A DNA stretch of 33,892 bases from Parafrankia discariae. GTDB lineage: Bacteria > Actinomycetota > Actinomycetes > Frankiales > Frankiaceae. This document shows, piece by piece, positions 4,669 through 33,892 of the stretch. Within the stretch, counting starts at the first letter, position 1. Every line of letters begins with the position of its first letter. A program made the translations under genes and the position numbers. Location of the stretch: assembly GCF_000373365.1 (NCBI RefSeq), contig NZ_KB891148.1, forward strand, positions 98,288 to 132,179. Direction: 5' to 3'. Below the pieces are notes generated by a model. The model worked only from the letters and a program-made list of their open reading frames with translations. It was not told where the DNA came from and made no database searches.

Positions 4669-5091
4669 GTGAGCCTTAGCATCCGCAACAAGCTGACCGG
4701 AACCGTAAGCGAGATCACCCGGGGGGCGGTGATGAGCACCGTACTGATCACGCTGCCCGGCGGGCAGAGCCTGACCGCGGCGGTGACGCTGGACGCCGTC
4801 GACGACCTCGGCCTCAAGGAGGGCTCGGGGGTCGACGTCCTGATCAAGTCCACCGAGATCTCGCTGGCCACCGGCAGTGTGGACGGCCTGAGCATCCGCA
4901 ACCAGCTGCGCGGCACCGTCTCGGGCATCGAGACCGGCGGCGCCATGGCCGTGGCGCACGTCACCCTCGAGCAGGGCGGCGAGCTCACCGCGGCGATCAC
5001 CCTCGCCGCCGCGACCGAGCTCGGCCTGTCCGCGGGCACCGCGGTGACCGCCCTGGTCAAGTCGACCGAGGTGGCCGTCGCCGCGGCCTGA
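4669..5091 (+). CDS. Tandem Mop (TOBE) molybdate-binding protein, molbindin-like
   Basis: A 140-aa protein made of two clear repeats of about 68 residues, beginning LSIRNKLTGTVSEI (residue 3) and LSIRNQLRGTVSGI (about residue 74). Each continues through a beta-strand segment to the closing VLIKSTEISLA / ALVKSTEVAVA motif, the signature of the Mop/TOBE domain. Di-Mop proteins (molbindins) bind molybdate or tungstate oxyanions and are thought to store or buffer them in the cytoplasm. No molybdate transporter or molybdoenzyme gene lies in the window. The start is GTG at 4669, with a GAGGTGG ribosome-binding site just upstream. Confidence 0.9.
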   Translation: MSLSIRNKLTGTVSEITRGAVMSTVLITLPGGQSLTAAVTLDAVDDLGLKEGSGVDVLIKSTEISLATGSVDGLSIRNQLRGTVSGIETGGAMAVAHVTLEQGGELTAAITLAAATELGLSAGTAVTALVKSTEVAVAAA

Positions 5092-5266: not shown

Positions 5267-6103
5267 GTGCAGGACAACACTCGCTCCGCCGGCCGTACCC
5301 GGCCGCGGAACGTACTCGTGACCGGCGGGTCGAGCGGGATCGGCCGGGCCACCGTGCGCCAGTTCGCCCGGCACGGCGACACCGTCTGGTTCACCTACGC
5401 GTCCGGCCGGGAGCGTGCCGCCGCCCTCCTGGCCGAAACAGGGCGGGAGAACGGCGCCGACCTCCGTGCCTTCGAATTCCGCCAGGGTGACCGGGAAAGT
5501 CACCGGAACCTGGCAGAAGCTCTTCCCGGGCCGGTCGACATCCTCGTCAACAATGCCGCCGTCGGTACCCGGACGATAACCCGGTACGTCGCCGATCCCG
5601 AGGCTCGCGACGAGGCTTTCCTGCGCATCAACTGCCTCGGGCCGCTCTGGCTCGCCCGGCAGTTCCTGCCGGCGATGACGGAACGCGGCTACGGAAAAAT
5701 CATCAACATCTCCAGTGTGGGCGGCGGGGTGACGCAGTTCCCTGGTTTCGACATCGCGGACGGCATCAGCAAGGCCGCGCTCGCCTACCTGACCCGCCAT
5801 CTGGCCGCCGAGCTCGCCCACTCCCCCGTCGACGTGATGGCGCTCTGCCCCGGCGCGGTGGACACCACGATGCTGCGGGAGAGCACGCTGGACCCGCTTC
5901 CCCCGGACGCGCGCGCCGCGCTGGAGGCCGGGCTGCCGAAGGGACGACTGATCCGGCCCGAGGAGGTCGCGGCCGCCGTCTGGTGGCTGTGCCAGGACGA
6001 GTCCCGGCTGCTGCACGGCTCGGTCCTGGACGCCTCGATGGGGCTGGGCGTGCATCCCGGCCTGCTCACCGGCCGGGAGAGCGGCCGGGAGGTGACCGGC
6101 TGA
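5267..6103 (+). CDS. SDR-family protein lacking the catalytic tyrosine
   Basis: A 278-aa SDR-fold protein. The NAD(P)-binding motif TGGSSGIG (about residue 19) is intact, NNAG reads NNAA, and the catalytic Ser is in NISSVGG. At the YxxxK site the sequence is DGISK: Lys is kept, but the Tyr that donates the proton in classical SDRs is Asp. It may use another acid, act as a non-oxidoreductive SDR or have a regulatory or structural role. The GTG start at 5267 has GGAGGGGG 6 nt upstream. It is the first gene of a five-gene run; its TGA overlaps the next ATG (TGATG at 6101-6105). The product of this protein in the pathway is unknown. Confidence 0.88.
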   Translation: MQDNTRSAGRTRPRNVLVTGGSSGIGRATVRQFARHGDTVWFTYASGRERAAALLAETGRENGADLRAFEFRQGDRESHRNLAEALPGPVDILVNNAAVGTRTITRYVADPEARDEAFLRINCLGPLWLARQFLPAMTERGYGKIINISSVGGGVTQFPGFDIADGISKAALAYLTRHLAAELAHSPVDVMALCPGAVDTTMLRESTLDPLPPDARAALEAGLPKGRLIRPEEVAAAVWWLCQDESRLLHGSVLDASMGLGVHPGLLTGRESGREVTG

Positions 6104-7497
6104 TGGTGTCCCGGCGCGCGGCGGCGCTCACGGCCCGGCCGCCGGCGATAGCCGCCGCCCATTTCCGCGCGCAGGCCGACCCCTACCACCCGCGGCGGCG
6201 GCCCGGCGGCTACCTCAACCTCGGCACCGCGGAGAACCGGTTGGTGTGGGATCTGCTCCGCCCCCGACTGGCCGCGCGCCGCCCGCCGGGCCCCGCCGAC
6301 ACCCAGTACGCGCCGCTGCACGGGGCGGCCGACTTCCGCGCGGCGCTCGCCGGTTTCCTGGGCGGCGTCTGCCGGACGGAGCTCGACCCCGACCATCTCG
6401 TCGTCGTCAGCGGGGTGAGCGCCGCGCTCGACGTCATCGCCTCGGTCCTGTGCGACCCGGGCGATGTGATCATCGTTCCGGCGCCCTACTACGGCTCGTT
6501 CGACGTCGACCTCACCGGCCGGTCCGGGGCCCGCCTGCTGCCGGTGCCGGTGCGACCCGGGCAGGCCGGTGCGGCCGGTCCGGCCGGGCAGGCCGGGCAG
6601 GCCGGGCAGGCCGGGCAGGCCGGGCAGGCCGACGGCACCGGGGCGGGCGACGACACCGGAGCTGGCGGCGGGATCGCCCGGGCGATCGACCGCGCGCTGG
6701 CCGACGCGCGGCGCCGCGGTGTCACCGTCCGCGCGGTCGCGCTGGCCTCGCCCGGCAATCCGGTCGGTCACGTGTACGGTGCGCCGCAGCTACGCGCCCT
6801 CTGCGAGGTCGCCGCCGGGTACGGGGTGGACGTCATCGCCGACGAGATCTACGCGAACTCGGTGTTCGGGCCCGCGCCGTTCGTGAGCGTCCTGGACCCG
6901 CGGGTGGACGCCGCCGGTGCCGGTACCCGCGCCCATCTGCTGTGGGGCTTCGCGAAGGACTTCGGGCTGCCCGGGTTCAAGGTCGGCGTGCTGCACTGCC
7001 CGGACCCGGAGATCCGGGCCGCGGCGCGCGCGTTCGCCTACTTCGCGCCGACCTCGACCGACACTCAGGCCGTGCTGCGGGACCTGCTCGGCGACACCGG
7101 GTGGGTCACCGGCTTCCTCGCCGAGAGCCGCCGACGGCTCGGTACCTCCTACACCCGGGCGACCGGGATGCTCACCGCGGCCGGCATCCCGTTCGTGCCC
7201 GTGGCGGCCGGGTTCTCCGTGTGGGCCGACCTGCGGGCGTGGTTGGCCGCGCCGACGTTCGCCGCCGAGCACGCGCTGTGGGAGCGGATCTTCGAGGAGC
7301 TGCGGGTGAACATCCTGCCGGGGCAGGCGTTCACCGCCCCCGAACCCGGCTGGTTCCGGATCTGCCACGCCACCGACCGGGCCGTCGTCGCCGAGGGGCT
7401 GCGGCGGATCGGTGGCCTGCCGCGGGCCGCCGGGCCCGGCCCGGCGGCGACCCCCGTCGCCACCGTGGCGGGCAGCGCCGGGCTCAGGAGGGACTGA
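6103..7497 (+). CDS. PLP-dependent class I/II aminotransferase, ACC-synthase-like
   Basis: A 464-aa fold-type I PLP enzyme. Recognisable segments are GYLNLGTAENRLVWDLL near residue 36 (ACC-synthase-like), the APYYGSFDVDL loop, ASPGNPVG (PLP-ring Asn), ADEIYANSVF (Asp/Tyr contacts) and FAKDFGLPGFKVG, whose Lys285 should form the Schiff base. The resemblance is to ACC synthases and related aminotransferases, so transamination of an amino acid or an elimination/cyclisation is possible. Between tryptophan dioxygenase and formamidase genes, kynurenine or a derivative is a reasonable substrate guess. An Ala/Gly/Gln insert at about residues 150-190 is low-complexity and not part of the usual fold. 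The start overlaps the upstream stop. Confidence 0.88.
   Translation: MVSRRAAALTARPPAIAAAHFRAQADPYHPRRRPGGYLNLGTAENRLVWDLLRPRLAARRPPGPADTQYAPLHGAADFRAALAGFLGGVCRTELDPDHLVVVSGVSAALDVIASVLCDPGDVIIVPAPYYGSFDVDLTGRSGARLLPVPVRPGQAGAAGPAGQAGQAGQAGQAGQADGTGAGDDTGAGGGIARAIDRALADARRRGVTVRAVALASPGNPVGHVYGAPQLRALCEVAAGYGVDVIADEIYANSVFGPAPFVSVLDPRVDAAGAGTRAHLLWGFAKDFGLPGFKVGVLHCPDPEIRAAARAFAYFAPTSTDTQAVLRDLLGDTGWVTGFLAESRRRLGTSYTRATGMLTAAGIPFVPVAAGFSVWADLRAWLAAPTFAAEHALWERIFEELRVNILPGQAFTAPEPGWFRICHATDRAVVAEGLRRIGGLPRAAGPGPAATPVATVAGSAGLRRD
6583..6627 (+). repeat. In-frame 9-bp tandem repeat, 5 copies
   Basis: Five exact copies of GCCGGGCAG encode Ala-Gly-Gln five times inside the PLP enzyme. The flanks (6560-6672) are degenerate versions of the same composition, so the whole Gly/Ala/Gln insert probably arose by slippage. 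The frame is preserved. Confidence 0.95.
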
Positions 7498-7498
7498 C

Positions 7499-8497
7499 AT
7501 GCCAGGCGAACCCGCCGCGTCGACCGAACCCGCTCTGCCGGCCGGGCCCACCGCGTCGGCCGAACCCACCGCCTCGCCCGGCGGGAGCGCGTTCGGCTCC
7601 TGGTACTCCGCCGCCGGGGTCCGCGGCGGCGCCCGCCAGTTCTTCGGCCCGGAGATGGAGCGTGGCCGGGTCTTCTTCCCGGCGGAGCTCGTCCCCCACC
7701 TGTCCCACGAGGCGGTCCGGGCGCTGCCGCCGGCCCGGGTCCGCGAGCTGACCGTCCGGCATCTCTACCAGTTCCTCCTCTCCGCGACCCACCTGGAGAC
7801 CCGGGTCGTCAACCGCGGGGCGGAGCGCATCGCCGCCAACCAGGCGGGCGTCGACCTGCCCACCGCGGGCCGGCTGGACGCGTACAAGATCTACTGCGAC
7901 GAGGGCTACCACTCGCTCTACAGCCTCGACCTGGCCGACCAGATCGCCATCGCGACCGGCATCCCGATCCCCGGGTGCGACTACGGCGCCTTCGTCGGGG
8001 AGCTCGCCCGGACCGGCCGCGACCTGCTGCCCGGCGAGCCGGTGCTGGCCCAGCTCCTCCAGGTGATCGTCTTCGAGACCCTGATCACGGCCGTGCTCAA
8101 CGAGGTCCCGAACGACCCGACCGTCGTCACGGCGGTGCGCGAGCTCACCCGGGACCACGCCCGCGACGAGGGCCGGCACCACCGCTTCTTCACCGGCTTC
8201 TTCCACGTCCTGTGGGCGCAGTTGAGCGGGTCGCTGCGGATCCGCGTCGGCGCCGCCGTCCCCGGCCTGGTCCTCGCCTGCCTGGCGGTGGACGTCGGGC
8301 CGATCCGCGTCTCGCTGCGACTCGCCGGGCTGGACGGCGCCGCCGCCGACGCCGTCGTCCGGGACGTCTACGGCGGGGCGGCCGCGACCCGCCGGAGCCG
8401 CGAGCTGGCCCGGGCGACGGTGCAGATGTGCGAGTCCGCCGGCGTGCTCGACCTCCCCGGGGCCCGGGAGCACTTCGCCACCCACGGGCTGGGGTGA
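7499..8497 (+). CDS. AurF-family diiron N-oxygenase
   Basis: A 332-aa protein with all the metal-ligand motifs of the AurF/CmlI arylamine oxygenase family: Glu100 in THLETR, Glu135 and His138 in DEGYH, Glu193 in FETLIT, and His220, Glu224 and His227 in DHARDEGRHH. The spacing matches AurF, in which three Glu, one ExxH pair and a HxxxExxH cluster bind two irons. Family members oxidise aromatic amines to hydroxylamine, nitroso or nitro groups. The first 30 residues are a disordered Ala/Pro/Ser tail. AGGAGG lies 8 nt before the ATG, which is 1 nt after the upstream stop. In this operon the obvious arylamine is kynurenine or a product of it; this is inference. Confidence 0.9.
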   Translation: MPGEPAASTEPALPAGPTASAEPTASPGGSAFGSWYSAAGVRGGARQFFGPEMERGRVFFPAELVPHLSHEAVRALPPARVRELTVRHLYQFLLSATHLETRVVNRGAERIAANQAGVDLPTAGRLDAYKIYCDEGYHSLYSLDLADQIAIATGIPIPGCDYGAFVGELARTGRDLLPGEPVLAQLLQVIVFETLITAVLNEVPNDPTVVTAVRELTRDHARDEGRHHRFFTGFFHVLWAQLSGSLRIRVGAAVPGLVLACLAVDVGPIRVSLRLAGLDGAAADAVVRDVYGGAAATRRSRELARATVQMCESAGVLDLPGAREHFATHGLG

Positions 8498-9351
8498 GGC
8501 GCGCCGTGCCCGCTCCCGAGACCGACGGCGAGCCGCTCACCTACGCGACCTATCTGCGCCTCACCCAGCTCCTCGACCAGCAGCGGTGCCGAAGCTCACC
8601 CACCGCCCACGACGAGCTGCTGTTCATCACGATCCACCAGGTGTACGAGCTCTGGTTCAAGGTGCTGCTGTTCGAGCTCGCCGACGCGCGGGACCGCATG
8701 CTCCGCGGCGACGCCCGCGGAGCCGGGCTCCGACTGCGCCGGTGCCAGGAGATCGAACGGGTGCTGGTCGGGCAGATCGAGGTGGTCGACACGATGAGCC
8801 CGCGCGGCTTCCTGCAGTTCCGCGGGGTCCTCGGGACGTCCAGCGGCTTCCAGTCGGCGCAGTTCCGCGAGATCGAGTTCCTCTCCGGCACCCCCGACGA
8901 CGGCTGGCTCGCCCGGGCGGGCTGGCTCAGCTCCGACGACCGGGCGCAGCTGTGCCGCCGCCTGGCCGAACCCGACCTGTGGGACGCCTTCCTCACCCTC
9001 GTCGGTGGCACCGGGTTCGCCGTGGCCACCGAACACCAGCGCGCGGCCGCCCTCGCCGAGATCGCCGGCGGGGACGAGTCGGCCGGCCGGAACGGGGGGC
9101 ACGGTGAGCTGTGGGACCTCTCGGAGGCGCTGCTCAGCCACGACCAGATGTGGTCCGCCTGGCGCGCCCGGCACCTCACGGCGGTGGTGCGCCAGCTCGG
9201 GGAGAAGCCGGGCACCGGCGGGAGCGCGGGCGCCGGCTACCTGCGGGCGCGGGTCGATCTGAGGTTCTATCCGGAGCTGTGGGCCGCGCGGAGCCTGCTC
9301 GCCGCCGACGACGAGCCGCGGGAGACGGCCCCCGGGGCGGGGCGGCGGTGA
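8494..9351 (+). CDS. kynA: Tryptophan 2,3-dioxygenase
   Basis: Haem dioxygenase of 285 aa that opens the indole ring of L-tryptophan to N-formylkynurenine, the first step of the kynurenine pathway. Seen in the sequence: FITIHQVYELWFK with the active-site His48, FLQFRG with the substrate-carboxylate Arg110, SSGFQSAQFR, WRARH with the presumed haem-ligand His227, and the C-terminal GTGGSAGAGYLR loop. Length and motif order are those of bacterial TDOs. The GTG at 8494 overlaps the upstream TGA (GTGA); a second in-frame GTG at 8506 is an alternative. Its placement next to a formamidase gene confirms the pathway. Confidence 0.93.
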   Translation: MRRAVPAPETDGEPLTYATYLRLTQLLDQQRCRSSPTAHDELLFITIHQVYELWFKVLLFELADARDRMLRGDARGAGLRLRRCQEIERVLVGQIEVVDTMSPRGFLQFRGVLGTSSGFQSAQFREIEFLSGTPDDGWLARAGWLSSDDRAQLCRRLAEPDLWDAFLTLVGGTGFAVATEHQRAAALAEIAGGDESAGRNGGHGELWDLSEALLSHDQMWSAWRARHLTAVVRQLGEKPGTGGSAGAGYLRARVDLRFYPELWAARSLLAADDEPRETAPGAGRR

Positions 9352-10244
9352 GCGGCGCGCCCGGCCGGCGGACGTGGGAGAACGACCGGGAGCTGCGCGA
9401 CCGCGCGTACTCGCCCAGCCTGACCGTGCCGGACATGGCCGGCTTCCTGCGGGAGTACGCCGCCAGGTCCGACGCGGCGCGGCGGAGCATCGCCTGGCGG
9501 GAGATCGCCTACGGGCCGACCGCCGCCGAGACCCTGCACCTGTTCCCGGCCCGGCGGGACCACGCCCCGTTGCAGGTCTTCGTCCACGGCGGCTACTGGC
9601 AGGAGCTGAGCCGGTGGGAGTCGTCGTTCGCCGCGCCGGACTTCGTCGCCCGCGGCGCGGCGTTCGCCGCGCTCGGCTACGGGCTCGCCCCCGCGCACCG
9701 GCTCGACGAGATCGTCGCCCAGGTCCGCCGAGGCGTCCACTGGCTGTTCCGGCATGCCGGCGAGCTGGGTGTCGATCCCACCCGCGTCTTCCTGAGCGGC
9801 TCGTCCGCCGGAGCCCACCTGGTCGCGATGTGCCTGCTCGACGGCTGGCTGCCGGCCCCGCTGCGCCCACGGGACGTCATCCGCGGCGCGACCCTGCTCA
9901 GCGGGATCTACGACCTCGAGCCGCTGCGGGACACCTACGTCGGGGAGGCCATCGGGCTCACCGCCGCCGAGGCCGCCCGCAACAGCCCGCTGCGCCGGGC
10001 GGGCAGCCGGCTCCCGCCGCTGGTCGTCGCGCGCGGCGAGCGGGAGACGGTGGCCTTCGCCGCCCAGCACAGCGCCTTCACCACCTCCCTGGCCGGGACG
10101 GGCACCCCGGTGACCGCGCTGGTGGCCGCGGGCCGGCACCACTTCGACCTGCCCTTCGACCTCGGCGACCCGGCCACCCTCCTCGGCCGGGCGACGCTGA
10201 CGCGGATGGGCCTGGCCGTTCGCCTCCCGGCGGACGGGCGATAG
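9348..10244 (+). CDS. Alpha/beta hydrolase, kynurenine formamidase type
   Basis: A 298-aa alpha/beta hydrolase with the HGGYW oxyanion-hole motif (residues 80-84) characteristic of kynurenine formamidases, the nucleophile elbow GSSAG (Ser153) and a C-terminal GRHHFDLPF segment carrying the catalytic His. It should cleave formate from N-formylkynurenine, the product of the adjacent dioxygenase, giving kynurenine. The GTG start overlaps the dioxygenase stop (GTGA at 9348-9351). Last gene of the coupled run. It belongs to the HGGXW/esterase-like type, not the metal-dependent KynB type. Confidence 0.9.
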   Translation: MSGAPGRRTWENDRELRDRAYSPSLTVPDMAGFLREYAARSDAARRSIAWREIAYGPTAAETLHLFPARRDHAPLQVFVHGGYWQELSRWESSFAAPDFVARGAAFAALGYGLAPAHRLDEIVAQVRRGVHWLFRHAGELGVDPTRVFLSGSSAGAHLVAMCLLDGWLPAPLRPRDVIRGATLLSGIYDLEPLRDTYVGEAIGLTAAEAARNSPLRRAGSRLPPLVVARGERETVAFAAQHSAFTTSLAGTGTPVTALVAAGRHHFDLPFDLGDPATLLGRATLTRMGLAVRLPADGR

Positions 10245-22852: not shown

Positions 22853-25150
22853 TCAGCGCTGACCCCGCGCGCCCGCCACGCTCGGTGCGGCGGCCTGGTC
22901 AGGCTCCGCGACCTCCAGCCAGTACCGCCGGCGTTGGAAGGCGTACGTGGGCAGGTCGATCCGCCGCGCGCCGGTGCCCGCGAAGAACGCCCGCCAGTCG
23001 ACGGCCTGCCCCCACCCGTACAGCACGCCGACCGCCTCGGTGACGGCGCGGGCCTCGGCGCGACCGGCTGGCAGCAGCACCCACGACCTCGCGCCGCGCG
23101 GAATGTCGACGCCGGCCGCGTCACGCCCCACGACCAGCACGTTCGTGGTGCCCGGGGGAACACGGCAGCCGGACGGCGCGCCGCGGGTCCCCGCCGCCAG
23201 CAGTGCCCGCAGGTCGTCCAGCGACAGCGCGCCCCGCACGTACGCGGCCGCGGCCTCACCAGTGCCGTGCCCGACGACGGCGTCGGGCCGCACGCCCCAG
23301 GACTCCACCAGCCGGCACAGCGCCACCTGAACGGCCATCTGAAGGGCCTCCTCCGTCTCCGCGAGAGCCGCTCGGAGGATCGTCCACTGCGCGGCGAAGG
23401 CCGGGAAGGCCGCCGCCAGTGCGCGGCCGGCGCCGCTCCCCCACCCGTTCCCACCGGGCAGCGCGAACACGATCCCGGCTCCGGCACGGCCGTCCACCTC
23501 GCCGGGAGCGGCCCCCGGGCCCGCCGGCGGGTCGGCGGCCATCGCGGTCAGGCCGAGCAGGAACTCCGCGCGGTCATCGGCGACCAGCACCGCCCGGTGC
23601 GGGAAGGCGCTGCGGCCGGTCGCGAGCGAGAACCCGACGTCGGCCGGGAGGAGATCGACCCGCTCGGTCACCAGGTCGAGCAGGCGCCGGGCCTGGGCCC
23701 GCAGCGCGGCCGGCGACCGGGCCGACAGCGGCCACGGCACCACCGACCGGTCCGCCGGCCGGTCCGCCGCGTGCCCGGCCGCCGTGTCGGCGAGCGGCGG
23801 CGGCTGGTCCTGTTCGAGGATCACGTGCGCCAGCGTGCCGTTGGCGCCGAACGAGGAGACCCCCACCCGGCGGGGCCGGCCGTCGGTGTCCGGCCAGGGC
23901 ACCGGTTCGGTCAGCAGCGCCACCGTGCCCGCGGACCAGTCCGCGTGCGGGGTCGGGGCGTCGACGTGCATGCTGCGCGGCAGCACGCCGCGCCGCATGG
24001 CCAGCGCCATCTTGATGACGGCGCCGGCGCCCCCGGCGGCCTGGGTGTGGCCCAGGTTCGACTTCAGCGAACCCAGCCACAGCGGCCGGCCGGCGGGCCG
24101 GTCGCGCCCGTAGGTGGCCAGCAGGGCCGCCAGCTCGATCGGATCGCCCACCGGGGTTCCGGTGCCGTGGCCCTCCACCGCGTCGACGTCCGCCGGGGCG
24201 AGGCCGGCGTCGGCCAGCGCCCGGCTGATGAGCCGTTCCTGCGAGGCGCTGCTGGGAGCGGTGAAGCCGTTGGTCGCGCCGCCCTGCTCCACGGCGCTGC
24301 CGCGCATCACCGCCAGCACCGGATGGCCGTTGCGCCGGGCGTCGCCGAGCCGCTCCACCAGCAGGACCCCCACCCCCTCGGAGATGCCGGTGCCGTCGGC
24401 CGCCGCAGCGAAGGACTTGCATCGGCTGTCCGGGGCCAGGCCCTGCCCGTGCCGGGTCGTCTCCTCCCACAGCTCCGGGGTGGCCAGCACCGAGACCCCG
24501 CCGACCAGGGCGAGCGAGCACTCGTCGCGCCGCAGGGCCTGGCTGGCCAGGTGCAGGCCGACCAGCGAGGAGGCGCACGCGGCGTCCAGCGTCACGCAGG
24601 GCCCCTCGAGACCGAACGTGTAGGAGACGCGCCCGGACGCGATGCTGCCCGCGCTGCCGAAGTAGGCGTAGCCGTCGATGCCCGGGGGCGGTGGGCGCAG
24701 CCGGTAGCCGTAGTCGTGGAAGATCACGCCGAAGTACACGCCGGTGCGGCTGCCCCGCGCCGAATGCGGGTCGATCCCGGCGTGCTCGAAGGCCTCCCAC
24801 GAGGTCTCCAGCAACAGCCGCTGCTGCGGGTCGGTGGCCAGCGCCTCGTTCTCCGACATCCCGAAGAACTCCGGGTCGAAGTCGGCCGCGTCGTGCAGGA
24901 AGCCACCCCCGAAGCAGCTGAGGGCCGAGGTGTCCCAGCCCCGGTTGGTCGGGAACGGGGTGATGGCGTCGCCGCCGGCGGCGACGAACCGCCACAGCTC
25001 GTCGGGTGAGCGCACCCCGCCCGGGAAACGGCAGGCCATCCCGATGATCGCTATCGGCTCGCCGGCCCGCGCGACCAGCCCTCGCAGCCGCTCGTTCTCC
25101 TTCATCGCAGCGCGCAGCGCCTCGACGAGGCGATCAGGGGGAACTGTCAC
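22853..25150 (-). CDS. Type I PKS protein: docking coil, KS, truncated AT; no ACP
   Basis: A 765-aa protein. Residues 5-28 are an N-terminal coiled-coil docking segment. A ketosynthase spans about 32-448 with Cys192 (LDAACASSL), His328 (EGHGTGT) and His368 (NLGHTQ), so it should be catalytically competent; the closing GTNAHV motif reads GTLAHV. The acyltransferase region, about 559-745, is only about 185 residues instead of about 300. Its start VFALPGG is diverged, the nucleophile motif GHSxG reads GHGTG (Ser to Gly629), and the middle containing the specificity motif and catalytic His is missing, although the post-AT linker [12 protein letters not shown] is intact. There is no KR, ACP or thioesterase. 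GTG at 25150, GGAGG 5 nt upstream. It follows the large PKS gene by 81 bp and should receive its chain through the docking coil. Confidence 0.9.
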
Positions 25151-25170
25151 CAGGGCCTCCGGCGGTCCAT

Positions 25171-25210
25171 GTCGGGTCGGGTCGGGGTTGGTCGGTCGGG
25201 TCGGGTCGGG
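25171..25210. repeat. GTCGG-type pentamer repeats between the PKS genes
   Basis: Two short blocks of repeated GTCGG units fill most of the 81-bp spacer between the PKS genes. Simple-sequence expansion; no function evident. Confidence 0.8.
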
Positions 25211-25231
25211 CCGAACCGGGGGCCGGGGTGG

Positions 25232-28200
25232 TCAGGTGCCCTCGCCGAGGGCCAGCCGGACGAGCGTCTCGGCGTCCATCTCGTCGAACGCGCTGGCCGC
25301 CGCGCCGCCGGGCCCGGCCGGCGGCACCGGATCAGGGGATCCGGTCCGGCCCGCGGCCGGCGGCTGGACCACGGATGGAGCCGCGGACGGGGCCGCGGGC
25401 TGGGCCGCGGCGGGGAACATCTGGTCCCGGAGGTGGCCGGCGATGGCCTCGGGTGTCGGGAAGTCGAAGACGAGCATCGGCCGCAGGCGCGCTCCGGTCG
25501 CCGCGGCCAGCCGGTTGCGGAACTGCACCGAGGCGAGCGAGTCGAAACCGAGCTCCCGGAACGGCCGGTCCGGTGCCACCTCCGCCGCGGAGGCGTGCCC
25601 CAGCGCGGCGGCGGCGGTGGCGCACACGACGTCGAGCAGGGCCCGGTCCCGCTCCGGGCCGCTGGCCCCCGCCAGCCGTTGGGCCAGCGTCCCGGCCGGG
25701 TCTTCGGCCTCGCCGTCGACCGACCGCCGGACCGGATGGCGGACCAGGCCGCTCAGCAGCGGCGGGACGCCCCCGGCCCGCAGCACCCGCGGGTCGAGCC
25801 GCATGGGCAGCAGGACGGGGCGGTCCGCGGTGAGCGCCGCGTCGAACAGCGCCATGCCCGCGGCGGCGGAGATCGGCCGCAGCCCGTTGGCGGCCATCCG
25901 CTGGTCGAGCGCGGCGGCGTCGAGGTGCCCGGCCAGGGCGCCGCGCGGGGCCCAGTACCCCCAGCCGAGGGCGAGCGCGGGCAGCCCGGCCGCCCGCCGG
26001 TGGTGGGCCAGGGCGTCGAGGAAGGTGTTGGCGGCCGCGTAGTTCGCCTGCCCGGCGCTGCCGAACGCCGCCGCGGACGAGGAGAACAGCACGAAGGCGG
26101 CCAGGTCGTCGCCCCGGGTGAGCTCGTGCAGGTTCAGGGCGGCGTCCATCTTGGGCCGCAGCACGGTGTCGAGGCGCTCCGGGGTCATCGCGGAGAACAC
26201 CCCGTCGTCGAGGGTGCCGGCGGCGTGCACGACCGCCGTCAGGGGATGCTCCGCGGGGATCGCGGCGAGCACGCCGGCCAGCGCGGCGCGATCCGCGGTG
26301 TCGCAGGCCGCCACCGTCACCCCCGCGCCGAGCGCGGTCAGTTCGTCGGTCAGTTCCGCGGCGCCGGGCGCGCCGGCTCCGCCGCGGCTGACCAGGAGCA
26401 GGTGACGGATCCCGTAGGCGGTGACCAGGTGCCGGGCGAGCAGGCCGCCCAGCGTGCCGGTGCCACCGGTGATGAGCGCCGTGCCGTCCGGCCGCCACCC
26501 TGCCCGGCCGGGCGGCGCGCCGGTCTGGCTGGTCTGGCCGGGCGGGGCGGTACCAGAGCCGGCGACCGCCGCGCGGACCAGGCGTTGCCCCAGGACCGCG
26601 CCCTCACGCAGGGCGACCCGCGGCTCGCCGCAGGCCACCGCGGCCGGCAGGGCCCGCTCCGACGCCGCCGTCCCGTCGACGTCCACGAGCAGGAACCGGT
26701 GCGGGTTCTCCGCCTCCGCCGAGCCGAGCAGGCCCCACACCGCGGCGTCGGCGAGGCCGGTGACGTCGTCGTGCGCGCCGACGGCCACCGCCCCCCGGGT
26801 GACCACGACCAGCCGGGCGGCGGCGAACCGCTCGTCGCGCAGCCATTCCTGTGCCAGCGCGAGCACCGAGCGCAGGGCCGTGCGCGCGGCCCCGGCCAGA
26901 CCGGGGCCGGCCGCGGCGGAGTCGCGGCTCACCACCACGACGTCCGGGACGGCCGGCAGGGCCGCGACCGCCGCCAGATCCGGGCAGGCCGGGGCGTGGA
27001 CGCCGGCCAGCGCGAGAGCCGTGCGCAGCCCGAGCGGATCCGGCCCGAGCACCGCCCAGCCCGGCACGCCGGCACCCGACGCGCTCACACTCGGCAGCAC
27101 CGGCACCCAGTCGAGGGCGAACATCGCGTCCGCCACCGAGGCGCGCAGCGCGCGCAGCCGGGCGGCGGCCAGCGGCCGGAGATCGACCGGGCCGAGAACC
27201 GCGACCGCCGCTCCGGTCCGGTCGGCCAGCTCCGTCCAGACCGGGCCGGCGCCCGAGAGGTCGACGCGCACCCGCACCGCCCACGCTCCCGTGGCGTACA
27301 GCCGCACACTCCGGTAGCCGCCGACGACCGCCACCACCGACCCCGGCTCCGTAACCGGCTCGGGCACCGCGGCCGGCTCGGCCGCGGGCGTCCCGGGCTC
27401 CGGGAGCCGTCCCCACAGGGCCAGGTGCCCGGCCGCCTCGAGCAGCCAGGGGTGCAGGCCGAACCCGGCGACCTCGTGCTCGCCGTCCAGGTCGGCCTCG
27501 GCGAACAGCTCCATCCCCGCCCGCCAGGCTCTCGTGAGCCGGGGGCCGCCCGGCCCGTGACCGGCGGCGAGCAGCTCGCCGTACAGCCGGTCGACGTCGA
27601 CCGGCGCGGCGCCGGGCGGCGGCCACACCCGCGGGCCGGCCACCGACGCGGCCGGTTCCGCGGAACCGACCAGGGTCGCGGTGGCGTGCGCGGTCCAGGG
27701 CGTGTCCGCCGGAGCACCCTCGGGACGCGCGTGCACCGTCAGCGCGCGGTTCCCGGTGCCGTCCGGCGCTCCGGCGCGCAGCTGGAGCCGCAGTGCCCCG
27801 GTCTCGGGCAGCACCAGCGGCTCGGCCAAGGTCAGGTCGGCCACCTCCGGGCAGCCGCTCTCGTCGCCCGCCCGGATGGCCAGCTCCAACAGCACCCCGT
27901 CCGGCACGACCGGGACGCCGGCCATAGTCCGGCCGGCCAGCCACGGCTGCGCGGCCGGGCTGATCCGGGCCGTCAGCAGCAGGCCGCCGTCGGCCAGCGC
28001 GACGGAGCCGGTGAGCAGCGGATGAGGCGGGCCGTCGCGACCCGTCGCGGCGCCGGCATCGGCGTCGTAGCCGGCGCCGGCCGAGCGGGCCGGGGCCGGC
28101 CGCGGCCAGAACCGCCGGCGCTGGAAGGCGTAGGTGGGCAGGTCGGCCGGGTGCGCGCCGGTGCCCGTGAACGCCTCCCGCCAGTCGACGCCGACCCCGT

Positions 28201-31200
28201 GGACGTGCGCCTCCGCCAGCGCGGCCAGCAGGCGGTCGACACCCCCGCGGCCGCGCTGGAGCGTGCCGACGACCACGGCGTCCCGGCCAGTGTCGTGCGC
28301 CGTCTCGGCCAGCCCGAATCCCACTACCGGATGTGGGCTGACCTCGACGAACGTGTCAAAGCCGGCGGCCAGCAGCGCCCGCGCGGCGCCGTCGAGCAGC
28401 ACGGGTTCCCGGGTGTTGGAGTACCAGTACCCGGCGTCCATCACCGCGGCGTCCAGCGGCCCCCCGGTCACCGTCGAGTAGACCGGGATCCGGGCGGGGG
28501 TGGGGGCCAGCGGGCGCAGGATCTCCATCAGCTCGGGACGGATGCCGTCCACCTGCGCGCAGTGCGTCGCGACCGACGACGCCACCAGCCGGGCGCGGAC
28601 GCCCTGCGCGGTGAGCTCGGCGACCAGCTCGTCCAGCGCGGCGGTCTCGCCGGCGACGGTGACCTGGCGCGGCCCGTTGATCCCGCCGACGGCGAGGCGG
28701 CCACCGAAGCGGCCCAGCCGGGCGGCGACGTCCGCGGCCGGCAGTCCGACCGACGCCAGTGCTCCCCGGCCGAGCAGGCGGGTCGCCAGCAGCCTGCTGC
28801 GCAGCGCGATGATCCGGGCGGCGTCGTCCAGGGAGAGGGCGCCCGCGACGTGCGCGGCGGCGACCTCCCCCTGGCTGGTACCGACCACCGCGGCCGGAGT
28901 CACCCCGTAGGCGCGCCAGGCCGCGGCCAGCGACACCATCATCGACATCAGCGCGGGCTGGATCACCTCGATGGCCTCCAGGGGTGGCGCCCCGTCGACC
29001 CCGCGGATCACGTCCAGCAGGGACCAGTCGAGGTAGGGCTCGAACGCCACGGCGCACTCGGTCATCCGCTCGCGGAACGGCGGGCAGGACTCCAGCAGCT
29101 CACGGCCCATGCCGGCCCACTGGGACCCCTGCCCGGGGAAGACGAACACCACGCGCGGGTCGGGAACGGCCACCCCGCGCGCGACGAGGCCGCGCGACCC
29201 GTCGGCGGGATCGTGGTCGCCGGCGAGCTCCGTGAGGCCGGCCCGCAGCTCGTCGTGGTCGGCGCCGATGACGACCGCGCGGTGGTCGAAGGCGGCCCGG
29301 GTCGTCGCGGTGGCCAGCGCGACGTCCGTGGCGGCGCGGCCGGGACGGTCGTCGAGGTGAGCGGCCAGCCGGCGGGCCTGGGCCCGCAACGCCTCCCCGG
29401 TGCGCGCCGACACCAGCAGCGGCACCGGCCGCGACTCGGACCGCGGCGTAGGCCGCGACACGGGCGCCGGGGTGGGTCCGCCCGCCGCCGCGGACCCGGA
29501 TGCCGGCCCCGCGGCGGCGGGGGCCTCACCGAGGATCACGTGCGCGTTCGTGCCGCTGATGCCGAAAGCGGAGACCGCGGCCCGCCGCGGCCCGCGTTCA
29601 CCGGCCGGCCACGCGACCTCCTCGGTCAGCAGCCGGACGCCGGAGCCGTCCCAGTCGACCTGGTGGGTGGGCTCCGCCGCGTGCAGGGTGCGTGGCAGCA
29701 CTCCGTGCCGCAGGGCCAGCACCATCTTGATCACGCCGGCCACGCCGGCCGCCGCCTGGGTGTGCCCGATGTTGGACTTCAGCGATCCCAGCCACAGCGG
29801 GCGGCCCTCCGCCCGCCCGCGGCCGTACGCGGCGATGAGGGCCTGCGCCTCGATGGGGTCGCCGAGCTTCGTCCCGGTGCCGTGCGCCTCCACCGCGTCC
29901 ACCTCGGACGGCGACAGCCCGGCGACGGCGAGCGCCTGGCGGATCACCCGCTGCTGCGCCGGGCCGTTCGGCGCGCTCAGCCCGTTCGACGCCCCGTCCG
30001 AGTTGACCGCCGTGCCCTCGACGACGGCGAGCACGGGACGGCCCGCCCGACGGGCGTCGGAGAGCCGTTCGAGGACCAGCAGGCCGACACCCTCGGAGAG
30101 GCCGGTGCCGTCACCACCCGCACCGAAGGCCCGGCAGCGGCCGTCCGGTGACAGCGCGCGCTGGCGGCTGAACTCGACGTACATGAGCGGGGAGGACATC
30201 ACGACCGCGCCGCCGGCCAGCGCCAGCGAGCACTCGCCGCGGCGCAGCGCCTGGACGGCCTGGTGCAGGGCCACCAGCGACGACGAGCAGGCCGTGTCGA
30301 CGGTCACCGCCGGCCCCTGCAGCCCCAGGGTGTAGGAGATCCGCCCGGACATGACGCTCGCCGCGTTGCCGATGCCGATGTAGCCCTCCAGCTCCGCACC
30401 GGCGGCCAGCGCGCGCGGGCCGTAGTCCTGGACGTTCGTGCCGACGAACACCCCGCCCAGGGTGCCGCGCAACGTCGACGGGTCGATGCCCGCGCGTTCG
30501 ACGGCCTCCCACGACAGCTCCAGCAGCAGCCGCTGCTGGGGGTCCATCGCCAGGGCCTCGCGGGGGTTGATGCCGAAGAACTCGGCGTCGAAGTCGGCGA
30601 CCCCGGTCAGGAAACCGCCGTGGCGCACGTAGGACGTGCCGGACCGCTCCGGGTCGGCGTCGTGCAGGGCGTCGAGATCCCAGCCCCGGTCGGCCGGGAA
30701 CTCGCCGATCGCGTCCCGGCCCTCGGCCAGCAGCCGCCACAGGTCCTCCGGGGAGTCGACCCCACCGGGCAGCCGGCAGGCCATGGCCACGATCGCCACC
30801 GGCTCGGTGTCCAGCCGGTTTTGATCACCGCCGGGCCCGCCGCGGTCACGGGACGTCGCGGGACGCCGGTCGCGGTCGGCGGGCGCCTCGTCCTCGTCGC
30901 CGCCGGCGATCTCCCCGCGCAGGAACTCCGCCAGCGCCGACGGGGTCGGATAGTCGAACACCAGCGTGGATGGCAGCCGCAGGCCGAGCGCCGCGCCGAG
31001 CCCGTTACGCAGATCGACGGAGGTAAGCGAGTCGAAGCCGAGGTCGCGGAACGCCCGGTGCGCCTCCACGGCGGTGGCGTCGGCGTGGCCCAGCACGGCC
31101 GCCGCCCGGGTGCGGACCGTCTCGATCAGCGCCCGGTCCCGGTCGGCCGCGGGCAGGGCGGCGAGCCGGCGGGCCAGTGGCGAGCCGGTTCCGGTCACGG

Positions 31201-33892
31201 CCGGGGAGGCGGTGCCGTCCGCGGCGCCGGACGCCCCGCCCGCGGCGGCGACCTGGGCGGCGTCGGCGGCGAGCGTGTCGAACAGGGGGCGGCGGCCAGC
31301 CGAGGTGAAGACCGGGATGAACCGTGCCCAGTCGATGTCCGCCACGACGGTGTGCGTCTCGTCGTGGTCCAGCACCTGTCGCAGGGCTTCGAGGGCGCGG
31401 CCCGGCGCGAGGTACCCGAGCCCCCGGGCCCGCTGCCGCCGCACATCGGGATCCTCGGCCGCCGCGACGTCGGCGTCGCCGCTTCCCGTGAGCGGCGCCC
31501 ACAGGCCCCAGGCGACCGAGGTCGCCGGCAGGCCGCGGGCGTGCCGGCACTCGGCCAGCGCGTCCAGGTGGGCGTTGGCCGCGGCGTAGGCGGCGTGGTC
31601 GGCGCCGCCCCAGACACCGACGATCGAGGAGAACAGCACGAACGCGTCGAGGTCACCGGCGGGGAACAGCTCGTCGAGCCGGTCGGCCACGGTGGCCTTG
31701 ACGGCGACGGCGTCGGTCAGGTCGGTGACCGAGGTGTCGGCGAGCGGGCGCAGCCCGAGCAGCGCGGCGGTGTGCACGACGGCGCGGATCGGCCCGCCGG
31801 CGGCGGACTGCCCGCGGACAACCGCGGCCAACGCCTCGCGGTCCGCGAGGTCGCAGGTGGCCACGGTCAGCCGGAGATCCCCGGCGAAGGTGCCGCGGCG
31901 CAGCGTGTCGATGTCGGGATCGCCCGCACGGTGCGATCCGGCGAGCACGACATGCTCGGCTCCCCGCCCGGCCAGCCATCCGGCCAGATGAGGGCCGAGC
32001 GGTCCGGTGCTGGTGACCAGTACGGTTCCGCGGAACCGCCGGCGCCGGGCGGGTTCGGCCCCGTCGAGCGGCGCGCGCAGCAGCCGACGGGCGAAGGCCG
32101 TGCCCGCCCGGATCGCGACCTGGTCCTCGCCGGTCGCGCCGCGCAGAACCGCCGCCAGCCGGCTCCGGGCGGGCCCGTCCAGCGCGTCGGGCAGGTCGAC
32201 GAGACCGCCCCAGCGGGACGGATGCTCCAGCGCGGCCACCCGTCCCAGTCCCCAGGTCTGCGCCCGCGCCGGGTCGGTCACCGGGTCACCGTCACCGACG
32301 GACACGGCACCGCGGGTGAGGCACCACAGCGGCGCCCCGATCCCCGCGTCGCCCAGGGCCTGGACGAGCAGCAGAGTCGCCGCGGCGCCCCCCGCGTCCA
32401 CGGCGTCCCCGGCGCCGGTCAGCGCGAGCAGCGACAGCACGCCCCGCGGGACGGTCTCCCCGGCGCCGGTCACGGCCCGCAGGCGGCGGGCGAGGCCCTC
32501 CCGGGTGAGGTCGGCGGGGCCGACCGGGACGCCGACGATCTCCGCGCCGTCCTCGGCCAGGGCGCGCACGGCGTCGGCGGCGGGCGGCGGGGCGGCCTCG
32601 GCGGCCGGGAACGGGGTGACCACCAGCCAGCCGCCACCCACGGCCGCCGGGGAGGCCCGCGGCGGTTCTGGACCGAGCGGATGCCAGCCGACGCGGTACC
32701 GCAGCCTGTCAAGATCCGCCCCACCAGCCACGCCACCGCCGGATGCGCCATCGCGAGCCGCGCCACCGCGGGCCGGGTGGTCGTCGCCCAGCAGCCAGTA
32801 CCGCTGATGCTCGAAGGGGTAGGTCGGCAGGTCCACCTGCCGGCCCCCGGCCACCAGCGGGGCCCAGTCGACCGGCACCCCGCGCACCCACAGCCGCGCC
32901 GCCCCGGCCGACAGCCGGTCCGGCCCGCCGTCGCCGCGCCGCAGCGACTCCACGACAACAGCGTCCGGGACGCCGGCCGCCTCGGCTGTCTCGGTGATCG
33001 CCGCGGTCAGCACCGGATGTGGACTGAGCTCCACGAACACCCGGTGCCCCTCAGCCAGCAACCCGCGCACCGCCTCATCGAAACGCACCCGCGACCGCAG
33101 GTTCCGGAACCAGTACTCCCCGTCCAGCGACTCCGGCTCCACCAGACATCCCGTCACCGTGGACCACATCGCCACATCACCCGCACGCGGGGTGATACCC
33201 ACGAACTCCACGGCCAGCCGGTCACGGACCCGCTCCACCTGCACCGTGTGCGACGCGTAATCCACCGGCAACCACCGAACCCGCACACCCTCCGCCCCCC
33301 ACCCCGACACCAACCCCTCCAACACCGCCGTCTCACCCGCCACCACCGTCGCCGACGGCCCGTTCACCGCCGCCACCCCCACCCCACCAGCCCACTCACC
33401 ACCAGCCAGCTCACCCAACCGGGCCTCCACCTCCACCACCGGCAACCCCACCGACACCATCCCCCCACCACCAGCCAGCTCCTCCGCGATCACCCTGCTC
33501 CGCAACGCCACCACCCGCGCCCCCTCCTCCAACGACAACACCCCCGCCACACACGCCGCCGCCACCTCCCCCTGCGAATGCCCCACCACCACATCCACCC
33601 GCACCCCCCACGACTCCCACACCGCCGCCAACCCCAACGCCACCGCCCACAACACCGGCTGCACCACATCCACCCGCTCCAACAACCCCGCCCCCGCCAC
33701 CCCAGTGCCCGAAACCCCCGAACCACTCCCCTCCACCCCACGCAGCACCTCCACCAACGACCAGTCCACAAACGGCGCCAACGCCACCGCACACTCCCCG
33801 ATCCGACCCGCGAACACCGGCGAAGAATCCAAAAGCCCCGCACCCATCCCCACCCACTGCGCCCCCTGACCCGGAAACACCCACACCACCCG
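25232..33892 (-). CDS. Modular type I PKS (5' partial): AT-KR-ACP / KS-AT-DH-KR-ACP
   Basis: The frame is open through the window edge, so the start, including the first KS, is missing; about 2886 codons are visible (numbering from the GTG at 33889). Order: AT 1-320 (GHSQGE 103-108; YASH 211-214, the methylmalonyl signature); KR about 395-860 with Ser/Tyr/Asn present but an altered cofactor loop; ACP about 920-995 (GFDSL, Ser954); KS about 1030-1455 (Cys1201, His1336, His1376); AT about 1580-1890 (GTSQGE 1670-1675, VATH 1773-1776); DH about 1955-2160 lacking the catalytic His; KR about 2260-2690 ([11 protein letters not shown], intact Ser/Tyr/Asn; B-type); ACP about 2755-2825 (Ser2784); C-terminal docking helix about 2866-2882. 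No ER. Predicted chemistry is two extensions, the second ending as a beta-hydroxyl because the DH looks inactive. Product unknown. Confidence 0.93.

Follow-up and report, generated by a model that had tools for sequence, protein, structure and literature searches.

In the quinaldate and quinolone pathways (e.g., those of thiocoraline, through 3-hydroxyquinaldate, and of quinolobactin), a tryptophan 2,3-dioxygenase (TDO) and a formamidase supply kynurenine to an aminotransferase that depends on pyridoxal phosphate (PLP). The pyrrolnitrin pathway has halogenases and a Rieske N-oxygenase (PrnD), is not known to include a PLP enzyme or short-chain dehydrogenase/reductase (SDR), and the substrate of PrnB is 7-chlorotryptophan. 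Here, we describe a five-gene operon of the actinomycete Parafrankia discariae (positions 5267-10244 of a 33,892-bp stretch of contig NZ_KB891148.1, hereafter the window; host genome of 7.9 Mb), the core of which recurs as a cassette in other actinomycetes and which could be a self-contained route from tryptophan, through kynurenine, to an N-oxygenated heterocycle. Like the quinaldate and quinolone pathways, it would hand kynurenine to a PLP enzyme, and closure of a 2-carboxyquinoline ring would be its simplest outcome; in contrast to them, the cassette core is devoid of a P450, a flavin hydroxylase, and a nonribosomal peptide synthetase (NRPS), and carries a diiron N-oxygenase, an SDR with aspartate in place of the catalytic tyrosine, and a PLP enzyme resembling 1-aminocyclopropane-1-carboxylate (ACC) synthase. 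The cassette differs from the pyrrolnitrin genes in having a diiron oxygenase, a PLP enzyme, and an SDR where the latter have Rieske PrnD and halogenases, and resembles them as a short route that would pair a TDO-like heme enzyme acting on tryptophan with aryl-amine N-oxygenation. Pyrrolnitrin is made by four enzymes, PrnB being the heme enzyme (PMC11791213).

All five genes lie on the plus strand in the order SDR, PLP enzyme, AurF-type oxygenase, TDO, and hydrolase, joined by a TGATG overlap, a 1-nt gap, and two GTGA overlaps, respectively, which are the frames and junctions that an earlier note on this sequence had given. The SDR-fold protein (5267..6103, 278 aa, GTG start; Pfam adh_short/adh_short_C2) retains the NAD(P) motif GGSSGIG, NNAA, N122, S150, and K169, while D165 (codon GAC, 5759..5761) replaces the catalytic Tyr. 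The fold-type I PLP enzyme (6103..7497, 464 aa; Aminotran_1_2), nearest to plant ACC synthase, has K285 and R419, and the positions of ACC synthase Y85, R150, and P146 are changed. A 9-bp tandem repeat within this gene (6557..6631, 8.3 copies) encodes a GQA-rich insertion of ~30 residues that is present only in the window copy among those aligned, and the structure model has a predicted local distance difference test score (pLDDT) <50 at residues 157-187. The ferritin-like diiron oxygenase (7499..8497, 332 aa), with AGGAGG upstream, carries seven ligands, among them H220, the histidine of N-oxygenases, and matches Pfam AurF at 64.6 bits (cut-off 29.6). The divergent TDO (8494..9351, 285 aa), with heme- and Trp-binding residues present, matches Trp_dioxygenase at 157.1 bits, above the cut-off, and the last gene (9348..10244) encodes an AFMID-like alpha/beta hydrolase (Abhydrolase_3/BD-FAE) with HGGYW, GSSAG, and HHFDLP motifs, a putative kynurenine formamidase. 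The promoter scan found no sigma-70-like site, and the one terminator-like site lies on the minus strand at 5185-5172, compared with an expectation of 0.7.

A scan of genome contigs with the AurF protein yielded 29 loci, and other cassette genes are adjacent in 12 of these (L015-L026; L009 and L010 were dropped as duplicates of L015 and L016, their contigs being equally long). Eleven of the 12 carry SDR, PLP, AurF, and TDO; in L025, which the SDR and PLP alignments omit, PLP, AurF, and TDO are present and the contig ends inside the PLP gene. Together with the window and a copy in a genome of the same genus (G004, L011), this makes 14 cassette copies, with the four-gene core complete in 13, from Frankiaceae, Pseudonocardiaceae, Streptosporangiaceae, Streptomycetaceae, and Micromonosporaceae. 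In the remaining 17 loci, AurF identity does not exceed 52%, no TDO is seen, and the SDR/PLP matches are weak (23-31% identity). The order is generally SDR-PLP-AurF-TDO and is AurF-TDO-SDR-PLP in Catellatospora and Actinoplanes; intergenic gaps are mostly short or negative, the SDR-PLP gap being 378 and 422 nt in two Streptomyces, with gene starts outside the window chosen mechanically. Identity matrices of the four core genes correlate at 0.93-0.97 (13 loci, species relatedness not corrected for). In a sample of 393 class genomes, 10 have AurF homologues (E<=1e-30), and four each have PLP (E<=1e-50) and SDR (E<=1e-42) relatives, as scored on the top few preliminary candidates of each genome (six and four among the rows listed); these four are exactly the genomes holding the cassette AurF, and within the window's family the cassette occurs in 4 of 35 genomes. 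Chance adjacency of the genes is rejected, since the core recurs in 14 loci and, at these cut-offs, none of the other sampled genomes yielded SDR or PLP relatives. The cassette genes are under purifying selection, with ratios of nonsynonymous to synonymous substitution (dN/dS) of 0.08-0.37 (four pairs each for SDR, PLP, AurF, and TDO; two for the hydrolase). The earlier note had made its proposal hang on these families not being rarely found together, and they are not, as far as the four-gene core is concerned; a fixed order does not hold, and the fifth gene is variable (5/14). The PLP protein had no match at E<=1e-30 among 72,556 plasmid records. The cassette is patchily distributed and apparently horizontally moved.

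The equivalents of TDO residues Y24, Y27, L28, F51, H55, R117, L120, H240, and G253, whose roles we in part presume, are kept in all 14 copies; that of T254 is kept in 13 (Ser in one), and the Y113 position is Phe throughout. The loop reads GTGGS in five copies (including the window), GTAGS in seven, GTGGT in one, and GSGGS in one. Tryptophan should be opened towards kynurenine, and this part of the claim in the earlier note that TDO and formamidase together yield kynurenine stood; the formamidase, on the other hand, is optional, as it accompanies only the copies of the window, G004, Protofrankia, CiP1, and Sphaerisporangium. All five hydrolases have the nucleophile Ser and catalytic His in place and carry the oxyanion motif HGGYW, G-x-S-A-G, and (N/H)HFDLP, which we take to be marks of the AFMID family; NCBIfam and Pfam place the protein in general esterase/lipase families, none naming formamidase, and the hydrolase tree (L015 ORF, open reading frame, trimmed to 330 aa) had no starred branch. 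Its designation as a putative kynurenine formamidase comes from the HGGYW motif and the position beside TDO.

The genomic background of the carriers bears on what this kynurenine could be for. The cassette TDO is the sole PF03301 gene found in the window genome, and none of the four Frankiaceae hosts has a TDO beyond that of the cassette, whereas each of the other 10 hosts has at least one more. Nine of the 14 host genomes, none of them Frankiaceae, have kynureninase (TIGR01814); in eight of these nine it adjoins a non-cassette TDO, and in Kutzneria that site also has a hydrolase with HGGYW. Four of the five hydrolase-bearing cassettes sit in genomes without kynureninase, and Sphaerisporangium has both. 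Therefore, where the host does not form kynurenine catabolically, the cassette mostly brings its own formamidase (exceptions being Streptomyces sp. MP131-18 and Sphaerisporangium). Kynurenine in the four Frankiaceae hosts is unlikely to be destined for anthranilate or NAD, because they have no other TDO, no kynureninase, and the cassette hydrolase in all four. Separately, Kutzneria sp. 744 has two nearby TDO-like genes (L083:7846-10908), each <30% identical to the cassette TDO, adjoining a FAD-binding protein and two proteins without a Pfam match.

The seven metal ligands that the earlier note had read in the AurF-type oxygenase were confirmed (E100, E135, H138, E193, H220, E224, and H227) and are invariant in 14/14 cassette copies; the six diiron family ligands are also present in 36/36 AurF rows examined. 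The seventh histidine is characteristic of the N-oxygenases in this ferritin-like diiron class (PMC13061610). The cassette protein thus has the fold family and the seven ligands, including the extra His, of AurF, CmlI, Dob3, and AzoC (PMC13061610, PMC6783550), but differs from these in gene neighbourhood and is distant in sequence from AurF and CmlI (31 and 26 bits with profile A1); the NCBIfam match, NF045603, reaches 23 bits for a cut-off of 620. In the tree, which was built without AurF and CmlI themselves and with the L041 ORF trimmed to 340 aa, the cassette AurFs form one clade (100/99) that joins a sister clade at 100/100.

The closest solved relatives of the PLP enzyme by sequence and fold are plant ACC synthases (1b8g, 1iax), in agreement with the label in the earlier note. 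It shares with them the PLP Lys (K273 equivalent) and the carboxylate Arg (R407 equivalent) in 14/14 copies, the Ala46 equivalent in 13/13, and the Glu47 equivalent in 12/13 (Asp in one). In contrast, the Tyr85 position is Leu in all 13 copies covering the site, and the contacts to the adenosyl group of S-adenosylmethionine (SAM) are changed (Arg150 to V/T; Pro146 to G/S/A; the Ser18-Tyr19-Phe20 adenine pocket to A-I-A). The roles of these residues in ACC synthase, including that of the invariant Tyr85, have been described (PMC1282579). Because they are replaced, SAM is unlikely as the substrate and a SAM-dependent ACC synthase is rejected; the protein appears to descend from ACC synthase and to act on amino acids other than SAM.

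In the SDR, Asp stands at the catalytic Tyr position in 13/13 copies (in an alignment that included other SDRs), while the Asn, Ser, and Lys of the tetrad are kept. The model has a classical fold (pLDDT 82, with loop 152-156 poorly modelled), and the chains closest to it are glucose dehydrogenase and actinorhodin ketoreductase. The SDR assignment in the earlier note holds for the fold and the NAD(P) motif; it had overlooked the missing Tyr, as well as the loss of the SAM-adenosyl residues from the PLP enzyme and the optional nature of the formamidase, and its proposed product left the SDR without a function. In imine-reducing enzymes the proton donor is Asp, Glu, or Tyr (PMC7540600), and the cassette SDR likewise has an Asp near a polarising Ser and the NAD(P)H site. 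However, the Asp-type enzymes of that source are imine reductases (IREDs), which have no significant sequence similarity to SDRs, and engineered beta-hydroxyacid dehydrogenases, and the imine-reducing SDRs there use Tyr (PMC7540600).

Taken together, the cassette may encode a self-contained pathway, a reading whose chances we judge to be about even, in which tryptophan is converted to kynurenine, a nitrogen is oxygenated, PLP chemistry and ring closure follow, and a C=N bond is finally reduced. The genes, their coupling and co-occurrence, the active-site residues, and the selection on them are as described above; the substrates, the order of steps, and the product are what we infer. As the first and well-supported step, TDO would open L-tryptophan to N-formylkynurenine, from which a formamidase, either that of the cassette or presumably that of the catabolic pathway of the host, would free L-kynurenine. 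N-oxygenation of kynurenine, or of a compound derived from it, would follow by the AurF-type enzyme, whose class is supported, the aryl amine being a slightly likelier site than the aliphatic amine. Subsequently, the PLP enzyme may act on the side chain, most simply by transamination, attack of the ring nitrogen at the alpha carbon may form a cyclic imine or nitrone, and the Asp-type SDR could reduce its C=N bond. The likely product class would be an N-hydroxy 2-carboxy-(di/tetrahydro)quinolone. The stronger proposal, that this is an undescribed, NRPS-free, and horizontally spread actinomycete pathway to an N-oxygenated kynurenine heterocycle (e.g., an N-hydroxy 2-carboxy-tetrahydroquinolone or a nitrone), with a Tyr-to-Asp SDR as a natural imine/nitrone reductase and a SAM-free ACC-synthase-fold enzyme acting on N-oxygenated kynurenine, is advanced tentatively and falls short of probable. 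Of the combined pathway in the earlier note, the dedicated, conserved operon with a TDO and a diiron N-oxygenase stands, while the aryl-amine site and the transamination are not established.

Several observations weigh against this pathway. All four carriers among the 393 genomes belong to the window's own family, so that this sample holds no independent carrier outside it. The cassette TDO scores 192.5 bits with TIGR03036, under the equivalog cut-off of 390.7, and is for this reason a divergent branch and not the TIGR03036 equivalog. An adjacent formamidase was not found in 9 of the 14 cassettes, and Streptomyces sp. MP131-18 (G396) has neither kynureninase nor the cassette hydrolase. A natural imine reductase among SDRs with an Asp donor is suggested by analogy only, and the nearest folds of the PLP enzyme, the ACC synthases, perform alpha,gamma-elimination. 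Finally, the seven sister-clade AurF loci (L027, L028, L029, L031, and L043, with about 8.1-14 kb of each, and L030 and L032) hold PALP genes in 7/7, genes resembling ornithine transcarbamoylase (OTCase-like) in 6/7, and OCD genes in 4/7 (assigned by Pfam in L027, L028, and L030 and by clustering in the others), a context which suggests an aliphatic amine substrate.

This last point leads to the alternative that survives best, which we nevertheless consider unlikely, namely that the substrate of the AurF-type enzyme is an aliphatic amine (kynurenine's own alpha-amine, or the amine of another amino acid), which would become a hydroxylamine, an oxime, or a nitroso compound, leaving the aryl amine free or as the nucleophile for N-N or C-N closure. 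The PALP/OTCase-like/OCD set, with which LysE, ATP-grasp, or carbamoyltransferase genes also occur in some loci, presumably resembles SbnA/SbnB-type diaminopropionate synthesis, and the substrate of VlmB is an aliphatic amine. The remoteness of the aryl-amine enzymes AurF and CmlI is in keeping with this alternative, and VlmB is named together with AurF (PMC13061610). Aryl-amine oxidation, as the earlier note had it, is thus not given by phylogeny, because the sister clade adjoins OTCase-like and PALP genes. Nevertheless, the sister-clade AurF is only ~50% identical, which does not fix the substrate, and kynurenine, the amine source evident in the cassette, carries an aryl amine. As TDO is present in all 14 copies, this aryl amine is the most direct candidate substrate, although homology does not settle the site. 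Judged by gene content, the sister-clade set itself looks like an undescribed pathway to an N-oxygenated amino acid, which may be aliphatic and perhaps derived from diaminopropionate. Four of the five sister-clade Streptomyces strains have a second AurF, located within the locus or elsewhere on the contig or in the genome (L031 itself, L035, L036, and L037).

Slightly less probable is that the SDR first reduces the ketone of kynurenine and the PLP enzyme then performs a gamma- or beta-elimination with ring closure in the manner of GntC, giving a cyclised amino acid, quinaldate-like or otherwise, with or without N-oxygenation; this overlaps with the proposed pathway and with the other alternatives. 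GntC, which acts on gamma-hydroxyarginine by elimination with ring closure (PMC10367076), is the top NCBIfam match of the PLP enzyme, albeit at 117.9 bits and far under its cut-off of 415. The gamma ketone of kynurenine could be reduced to a gamma alcohol, and the elimination chemistry of ACC synthases fits such a role, but the SDR lacks the Tyr used by ketone-reducing SDRs. Likewise, Y69 of the PLP enzyme is at what we take to be the aminotransferase Y70 site, and Leu stands at that of ACC synthase Y85, which also weighs against this alternative. Transamination, which the earlier note had suggested, is not established for this ACC-synthase-like enzyme.

It is improbable to a far greater degree that the genes serve no specialised product but the usual metabolism of kynurenine or kynurenate, to which an amine-detoxifying oxygenase is accessory. 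Although TDO, formamidase, and an aminotransferase-like enzyme would be enough for kynurenate, and DnfA, which we take to be akin to AurF, could serve as a precedent for the oxygenase, in eight of the nine hosts with kynureninase this gene adjoins a second, non-cassette TDO. DnfA oxidises hydroxylamine (PMC9478400). Identities between the window TDO and four non-cassette TDOs are 33-37%, and a single dedicated pathway is indicated by the patchy occurrence and by the fact that the four genes stay linked. Least probable of all is that the TDO-like protein is a MarE-type monooxygenase forming 2-oxindole, so that kynurenine is never made: its divergence from TIGR03036 allows the thought, and His55 and the Arg do not speak against it since MarE (8VYY and 9CA3) has the same contacts (PMC11904535), but the cassette TDO profile gives 211 bits to the TDO of X. 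campestris and 44 to MarE (8vyy, 9ca3), the MarE loop SLGGR occurs in 0/14 copies, which have TDO-type GTGGS or variants instead, and a formamidase-like gene stands beside five, so that we reject this type by profile scores and loop residues.

The genus of the window also preserves what appears to be a history of the locus. In G004, a region syntenic with the window flanks (thiolase, 93% identical; THAP4-type protein; GMC oxidoreductase) is without SDR, PLP, AurF, and the greater part of TDO. Of the latter, about 20 residues of the C terminus remain (L082:7137-7196, E 0.006 at 60% identity), in frame with the GTGA overlap, followed by a hydrolase aligning across residues 1-287 of the window hydrolase; relic and hydrolase together span L082:7137-8326 (G004:C3). 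The score of the relic against four cassette TDO C-termini was reached by 0, 0, 0, and 1 of 1000 frame shuffles. At the equivalent site of G001 only a hydrolase fragment is left (residues 136-221, L095:12513-12779, G001:C390). G004 has, at a second site on a different contig, the intact five-gene cassette (L011); its AurF clusters with those of Protofrankia and CiP1, apart from that of the window (support 100/98). From these remnants we infer that the five-gene form was probably once resident at the window locus in the genus and was lost stepwise, and that another copy was gained. In another genus of the family, a partial formamidase homologue (L096:1909-2283, G033:C76; 63% over residues 166-289) was found, with no other cassette genes within the 14 kb taken.

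The immediate flanking genes differ between the genera compared, and the ten flanking genes scanned in the non-Streptomyces genera are unlike. Streptomyces L019 is flanked by a class II tRNA synthetase with a GAD domain, an M18 peptidase, an acyl-CoA dehydrogenase, and a pirin, which look like housekeeping genes, and several of these flanking genes are common to up to five Streptomyces loci. Two cross-genus matches lie further out (fam17 between L017 and L020; fam20 between L023 and the window, where it is a P450), from crude gene calls. A larger conserved cluster around the cassette is thus unsupported, as the flanks vary by genus; polyketide synthase (PKS) genes were not searched for at other loci. 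The window itself has a modular type I PKS (KS, AT, DH, KR, and ACP domains) at 22853-33892 on the minus strand, >12 kb from the cassette, of which the piece at 22853-25150 (765 aa) has a short AT match only; in between are genes that are retained in G004 and G001 beside the decayed site. Directly upstream of the operon, at 4669-5091, is a double Mop/TOBE molybdate-binding protein, for which neither the syntenic G004 locus nor the surroundings of the G004 cassette gave a homologue at E<=1e-4, and the G001 stretch gave a match at chance level only.

The earlier note knew of no described cluster with this set, and our literature search found none either, most subscription journals and the cluster databases being outside its coverage. 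No co-mention of kynurenine and AurF was found, which is weak evidence of absence given that coverage, and literature on N-hydroxy, nitro, or nitroso kynurenines, on an N-oxygenase with TDO, on the gene neighbourhoods of diiron N-oxygenases, on OTCase-type sets, and on N-hydroxy quinolone clusters did not describe the gene set within the same coverage. The families are known and, as far as could be searched, their combination, a kynurenine-derived biosynthetic cluster, is undescribed. The gene set is small, apparently complete, and easily expressed, and it points to as yet unassigned chemistry, with N-oxygenation downstream of kynurenine, an SDR that has Asp for Tyr, and an ACC synthase homologue devoid of the SAM site. 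Should an N-hydroxy quinolone-type carboxylate be formed, metal binding, signalling, or inhibition would be conceivable roles for it. In essence, the conservation of the cassette across five actinomycete families suggests that its product is useful to the hosts.

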